Shown here piece by piece: positions 40,230 to 63,254 of a stretch of 64,000 bases of DNA. The notes below the pieces were generated by a model that searched no databases, was not told where the DNA came from, and was given only the letters and a program-made list of their open reading frames with translations. Source of the stretch: Lentisphaerota bacterium (GTDB taxonomy: Bacteria > Verrucomicrobiota > Lentisphaeria > Oligosphaerales > JABHEG01); contig JABHEG010000112.1 of the NCBI GenBank assembly GCA_018676675.1, positions 1-64,000 of the forward strand, written 5' to 3'. Position numbers and translations under genes: made by a program. How positions within the stretch are numbered: position 1 is the stretch's first letter; each line of letters opens with the position of its first letter.

Positions 40230-40678
40230 ACGGCGGGTTGCATTGCAAGACCCGTCCCGGGGCGTGTCCTTCCGGGTCAACCCGCATGTCTCATAGACTT
40301 GGGGTGCGTCGAGCCTTGCTTTCGCAAGCGGGTGCTGTGGAGCCGAGCAAGGCGAGACGGGCTTCACGGCTTCCGTGGAGCAGCGAGACCCCCGACGAGC
40401 GTCAAACCACTGCCCCGTGCGGCGAGAGCGAGGATCGGCGTGCCCCAAGTTTACCCAACGGGTGGGCATTGCCTCTTGGTCTCCGAAACACAGTGTCTCG
40501 TCCGAGGACCGACCGCTGATTCTCAATGCTCTCTGCCAGAGCGAGAAACAAACGCCACAGTGTCCCGCCCATGAGAAATGTGGGCTAACCGCCGCGAGGC
40601 ACCAATACCAGCCCCGCCTCTTCCGTTGTCCCTTCAAGAAGCTGGAAACGACAGGACCATATCGCTAAGGTAGCGGTC
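40230..40678 (+). ncRNA. Candidate structured noncoding RNA upstream of serA
   Basis: This gap (40099-40770) has no convincing gene but many helices. The main one joins 40294-40312 with 40435-40453: 19 consecutive pairs, four of them G.U on the + strand, which would be A.C mismatches on the - strand. Others: 40233-40239 plus 40249-40254 with 40273-40285 (13 pairs, with a small hairpin at the break); 40313-40320 with 40346-40353 (8 pairs); hairpin 40361-40381 (9 pairs, one G.U); 40521-40546; 40567-40585 (7 pairs, two G.U). Helix 40313-40353 competes with a small hairpin at 40315-40328. I could not match it to RNase P, tmRNA, 6S, SRP or a known riboswitch. It may be a free RNA, a leader of serA, or an RNA tied to a mobile element (HEARO-like). 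Confidence 0.6.
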
Positions 40679-62943: not shown

Positions 62944-63093
62944 AGCTCCCTGTTCGGACCGCGACAGACCTGTGCCTGCCGACTCAAAACGCCGACGAGG
63001 TATTTGTGCGCGCCAAATCGGGGGAGCAGCGTAACGCCGCGAAGAGGAAGGAAGCCGCCAGCACGACGCAACACAGACATACGCCGCAGGCAA

Positions 63094-63254
63094 CGTCTCT
63101 TCTCCCTTCCAGACTGTACTGTCGGTCCCGGAGTTGCACCGGATCAGTCCTGTGGATCACGTGACCGATGGCTTTCGGTCGCGTGCAAGGAACACACAAG
63201 ACTCGCGGACTCTTACCGCCGGTAGGGAATTTCACCCCGTCCCGAAAAGACGCG
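63094..63254 (-). promoter_or_regulatory. FMN riboswitch (RFN element)
   Basis: Read on the minus strand it contains the hallmark blocks ggggtgaaattccctaccgg, cggtaagagtccgcgagtc, ccggtgcaactccgggacc (variant of the usual third block) and the closing gggagaagagacg, which pairs with the 5' cgtctttt. It lies just upstream of ribBA, so FMN is expected to turn down ribBA and, if read through, ribH, nusB and ftsY. Confidence 0.95.

Follow-up and report, generated by a model that had tools for sequence, protein, structure and literature searches.

Among bacterial MITEs, the Correia/NEMIS, ERIC and QMITE2 elements are known to have structured transcripts, and insertions of Correia and ERIC elements change mRNA processing (reviewed in PMC10969869). 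The element described here resembles them in being short, non-coding, dispersed, bounded by terminal inverted repeats (TIRs) and, as predicted here, stably folding as a transcript. However, its TIR and its transposase are different ones, and unlike them it displays a defined internal hairpin with compensatory changes and strand polarity, which is better conserved than the rest of the element. HEARO (the IscB omega RNA) is structured as well and likewise associated with a mobile element; the present element differs from it by its lack of a covariance-model match, by having no linked nuclease that could be seen and by being TIR-bounded. With the IS1380 insertion sequences (PF13701) it shares the terminal repeat CCCGCATTTCTCAT and the YTAR insertion sites (as in locus L058, see below), whereas it possesses no transposase gene and measures about 304 bp compared to 2,252 bp. 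No internal hairpins of its plan were seen at the ends of the inspected IS1380 copies, and a literature search yielded no IS1380-derived MITE.

The window analysed here is a stretch of 64,000 nucleotides from a Lentisphaerota bacterium. The original prediction placed a structured RNA of about 450 nt at positions 40230-40678, between a RACo-like gene and serA. The conserved unit is smaller and comprises positions 40281-40584 plus target duplications, while the remainder is unshared flank. BLAST searches of the host genome (G000; 14.1 Mb in 390 contigs) returned 40 matches to the segment 40281-40584, which correspond to about 25 distinct places, spread over about as many contigs. The segment is therefore a dispersed repeat, and the suggestion of an independent, single-copy RNA is not supported. 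Copies aligned with their flanks have common start and stop points, which coincide with the TIRs, and the flanks 40230-40276 and 40589-40678 are common to no other copy. BLAST searches of 60 relatives found no copies, hence there is no close relative for an empty-site comparison. Likewise, a covariance model of the window family (R2) recovered no convincing copy from 241 genomes of the phylum, and the viral contigs that were searched contained no match to the TIR.

The whole element (40281-40584), as delimited by the BLAST copy boundaries, is present in its long form and in B-first orientation on the + strand. It consists of the left TIR, hairpin B, the mini-hairpin CCCAACGGG, hairpin A and the right TIR, and this order on the + strand is fixed across copies. 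The ends are 14-bp terminal inverted repeats, CCCGCATTTCTCAT...ATGAGAAATGCGGG. The left TIR (40281-40294, + strand) reads CCCGCATGTCTCAT and is the same as that found at IS1380 transposons elsewhere; the right TIR (40571-40584, - strand), recognised in the copy alignment, reads ATGAGAAATGTGGG on the + strand. Hairpin B (40295-40452, + strand), with its arms at 40295-40340 and 40407-40452, is the best conserved part according to RNAalifold, pair counts and divergence in an alignment of 19 near-complete copies. The 19-bp helix described earlier between 40294-40312 and 40435-40453, with 19 consecutive pairs of which four are G.U on the + strand, is confirmed and lies in this hairpin. The subsequent mini-hairpin (40453-40463, + strand; ACCC-AAC-GGGT, with the loop GAA in the copies L028 and L029) has a counterpart, CCCGAAGGGTGA, in elements of Desulfobacterota. 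Hairpin A (40464-40570, + strand) abuts the right TIR and diverges fast, with about 45% differences in L028 and L029 against 4-7% in hairpin B.

Copies in the host genome comprise a long form of about 304 bp, a short form of about 241 bp (both lengths taken between the duplications) and fragments; 13 of the 19 aligned copies are of the short form. What distinguishes the two forms is the tip of hairpin B (40341-40406, + strand), where the copy alignment shows an apical extension in long-form copies only, with 1-2 nt in its place in short copies. This difference bears on the switch that had been proposed for the region. The competing pairing of 40313-40320 with 40346-40353 forms eight perfect pairs in the window, but exists in only two of the 19 copies, because it requires AGCAAGGC, which is carried by the window copy and L010 only. 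Four other long copies display AGCAGAGC or AGCATAAC at this site, and the 13 short copies are without the stretch. The copies thus lend no support to a conserved switch. A second predicted helix (40233-40239 plus 40249-40254 with 40273-40285) is present with its 13 pairs, but not conserved: its pairs link the left TIR with unique flanking DNA, and it occurs only at the window insertion.

The element is flanked by 4-bp target duplications of the type YTAR, which are exact in 10 of the 19 aligned copies (e.g., CTAA/CTAA, TTAG/TTAG, CTAT/CTAT). In the window copy the right duplication is CTAA (40585-40588, from the copy alignment), while the left one, TCAA (40277-40280), is a decayed YTAR with one mismatch. 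Several host copies are situated exactly at the stop codon of a gene, with the YTAR duplication giving TAA or TAG (L009 at 2001, L019 at 2000, L020 at 2002, and further L028 at 2000 and L022), and at L009 and L028 each of the two duplications may contain the end of one of two convergent genes. In about six copies the stop codon of the upstream gene falls within the left duplication; as a rough estimate gives a chance of about 20% for this, we make no claim on insertion into stop codons.

A long serA leader, or another cis-regulatory RNA specific to the window locus, had been suggested for the region, and the position of the element, which has the same direction as serA and lies about 185 nt upstream of its ATG (40771), is compatible with such a role. 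Nevertheless, copies elsewhere adjoin unrelated genes (NamZ, Fpg, methyltransferase, PIN and URO-D family), homology stops at the TIRs and the flank on the serA side is not common to the copies, which makes this explanation highly improbable.

As the original prediction stated, no protein family fits the region: the open reading frames overlapping the element have no match in Pfam, and there is no transposase gene among them. Longer, transposase-bearing elements in the same genome were considered and rejected; truncated copies merely adjoin host genes. The TIR pattern YTARCCCGCATTTCTCATRR has at least 105 matches in GTDB genomes compared to about 7 expected by our own estimate. Among the matches listed, many pair up as the two termini of short non-coding elements (90-350 bp), often at a distance of 180-350 bp, and elements of this kind occur in Desulfobacterota, Verrucomicrobia, Balneolaceae, Gammaproteobacteria and others. 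In a planctomycetote (Planctomycetota, L058) both TIRs bound an element of 2,252 bp that encodes a 647-aa transposase (PF13701, IS1380; E 2e-125) and has YTAR at both ends (TTAG/CTAG). In five additional loci (L172, L174, L180, L127 and L141) a PF13701 gene begins just inside one exact copy of the TIR, and in L157 and L154 IS1380 transposase genes are located near slightly divergent copies. The host assembly, which is incomplete, contains only two PF13701 fragments (G000:C31:8849-9034, L149, and C73:11641-11865, L150). The TIR of the MITE was not found near these two IS1380-like remnants, nor was an intact IS1380 transposase with such TIRs found in this incomplete assembly.

Dispersal, TIRs, YTAR duplications, the absence of a gene and the TIR in common with IS1380 transposons lead us to regard window positions 40277-40588, very probably, as the insertion of an IS1380-type MITE. 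The ends and duplications suggest that an IS1380-type transposase (DDE, PF13701), acting in trans, would have recognised the ends of the element; its insertion into a YTAR site in the spacer that separates serA from the divergently oriented RACo-like gene would have duplicated four bases. Members of IS5 likewise use YTAR-like sites, and the YTAR duplication would also fit an IS5-type instead of an IS1380-type MITE. This assignment is improbable, as in several genomes it is PF13701 (IS1380) genes that are bordered by exact copies of the TIR. Moreover, piggyBac, whose insertion site is TTAA (PMC7351741), has been used as an outgroup and treated as a relative of IS1380 (PMC10813416).

A strand-polar, structured element on the + strand had been predicted, and this prediction holds. 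The fold of the region on the + strand has a z-score of -4.56 against 100 dinucleotide shuffles, none of which is as good, while the - strand is not exceptional in the same comparison (z -1.23). The + fold is the more stable one in 18 of the 19 copies, with a mean difference of 14.7 kcal/mol. In the RNAalifold structure of the + strand, 96.7% of the cells of the 19 aligned copies are paired. Two-sided (compensatory) changes occur at 12 pairs, a number that none of 500 shuffles reaches and that compares to 0-4 in slid controls; homologues with covarying helices therefore exist in the form of the copies themselves. Within hairpin B, 138 cells are G.U and 7 are A.C. Most of these G.U cells are pairs that are already G.U in the family consensus and hence do not represent independent events. 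The substitutions A>G and C>T (21) are no commoner in hairpin B than G>A and T>C (24); a simple mutational bias of one strand therefore does not explain the excess of G.U. In the divergent copies L028 and L029, hairpin B is 93-96% identical to that of L016, but hairpin A only 55-56% (96% and 56%, respectively, for L028).

We interpret the compensatory changes, the tolerance of G.U but not of A.C and the conservation of hairpin B beyond that of hairpin A as an indication of selection for a single-strand fold in hairpin B. An RNA-level constraint on the element, which mainly concerns the hairpin B fold on the + strand, is accordingly probable. Our confidence in RNA-level selection stays moderate, since the 19 aligned copies are closely related to each other and provide few changes to score. 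The combination of both, a MITE that is in addition constrained at the RNA level, appears to us quite likely.

Searches of Rfam at gathering as well as permissive thresholds (up to E=10) found no family that matches the element meaningfully, and none of the candidates that were to be checked (HEARO, group II intron, large ornate RNAs, riboswitches) exceeds the gathering threshold. Elsewhere in the window, at 63093-63253 on the - strand, Rfam recognises an FMN riboswitch (108.6 bits). The proposal of an RNA tied to a mobile nuclease element such as HEARO thus retains its mobile part, while its family assignment is replaced by TIRs and target duplications. Large structure and association with a mobile element would suit a HEARO/OMEGA-type or other IS200/IS605-linked RNA, yet there is no Rfam match to any such family, and TIRs with 4-bp target duplications are not IS200/IS605 ends. 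We consider this the least credible of the explanations discussed here, with hardly any chance of being correct.

Elements with the same ends and the same order of parts (TIR, hairpin B, CCCGAAGGGTGA mini-hairpin, hairpin A, TIR) are found in Desulfobacterota. Their hairpin B is distinct in sequence from that of the window family; its internal loops are conserved and its stems covary strongly. The covariation score is 0.64 compared to 0.22 in shuffled data for 12 sequences, and 0.705 compared to 0.195 for 55 sequences, whose alignment had been fitted to the model. G.U again outnumbers A.C in this core (65 to 9). In other lineages with the same plan the B-first strand is the more stable one in about 22 of 26 elements (p=0.0005, with elements that are partly related). 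A covariance model of the Desulfobacterota hairpin B (R1) was run on a sample of 115 genomes of the class to which Desulfogranum belongs and matched in 37, some of which contain at least 35 copies; no Rfam family covers this hairpin. R1 finds no match at E<1 in the genome of the window element; R2 matches L055, L129 and L116 weakly, TIRs included. Further R2 matches were discarded in L212, where TIRs are missing, and in L092, where they correspond to REP/RAYT-like palindromes. The latter locus, from an Acidobacteria MAG (1590-2781), contains a probable RAYT-type gene (1714-2445, - strand) surrounded by REP-like palindromes (GTAGGGGCACGGCGTGCCGTGCCC). Elements with an R1 core and the window element are alike in the order of parts and in the more stable strand, and many of the former have the IS1380-type TIR, but the two differ in hairpin B sequence and internal loops. 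The window element has ends, plan and strand polarity as in the Desulfobacterota class, and its core is not demonstrably homologous.

An explanation without RNA function would regard the element as an inert IS1380 derivative, in which palindromes are kept by DNA processes alone, namely gene conversion and template-switch correction of quasi-palindromes. It fits all evidence for mobility, and template switching could create compensatory changes. It is also in line with the unbiased orientation to host genes (12:6 relative to the upstream gene among host copies, p=0.24; 10:21 among Desulfobulbia relatives in G190, p=0.07) and with the result that a promoter-like site for the element was looked for and not found. 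Because orientation to host genes shows no significant bias, a role as 3'-UTR or terminator was dropped. However, template-switch correction is expected to purge G.U in the same way as A.C and to wipe out internal loops. By contrast, G.U is retained in both the window family and the Desulfobacterota core (see counts above), the loops of the latter are conserved while the stems covary, and constraint on hairpin B is far above that on hairpin A. We therefore consider an inert derivative rather unlikely, and return to a MITE under RNA-level constraint.

The Desulfobacterota core is not confined to one type of ends. In G190 and G104, R1 cores are located in elements with the unrelated ends ACCTAAATCCTGC...GCAGGATTTAGGT (L183, L225-L234, L240-L276), and 31 of 36 copies have duplications of 3 bp; TIRs of the ACCTAAATCCTGC type have 158 matches in a single 4.3-Mb genome (Desulfobulbia). 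R1 cores are also observed on a third foot type, GTAAGCGATCAC...AATCGCTTAC, without IS1380 ends (L187, L189, L191, L192, L197). It is conceivable, as a tentative reading, that the window element forms a single lineage within a widespread class of RNAs, mobile and structured, which are carried in miniature transposons and have been paired with unrelated ends. The covarying hairpin core and the mini-hairpin might in that case be selected as RNA, and the core rather than the ends might be what persists. The ends it would possibly have used are the IS1380-type, with 4-bp YTAR duplications, and the ACCTAAATCCTGC type, with 3-bp duplications. If this is true, bacteria would have, in the mobile core, an equivalent of SINE-like RNA parasites.

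For the element in the window, transcription of the + strand, either by read-through or from an undetected internal promoter, would yield a compact RNA closed by the element's own TIRs. Pair conservation suggests that the hairpin B fold of this putative transcript is under selection. A fixed role in host mRNAs is made less likely by the lack of a significant orientation bias and of a promoter-like site. The weakest step concerns its consequence: by analogy with the Correia and ERIC elements, the RNA fold may shield or process transcripts, but as the specific role of the element this is speculative and rather doubtful.

With these results an orphan 'large RNA' becomes a defined mobile element family, and IS1380 gains a miniature partner across several phyla. 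A large set of unlisted structured repeats is exposed, together with an RNA-like core that is common to two unrelated types of ends. Readers of large PVC-like genomes should be cautious, since a strong fold between genes may turn out to be a MITE. If the core is indeed selected as RNA, bacterial MITEs would be more than transposon debris.
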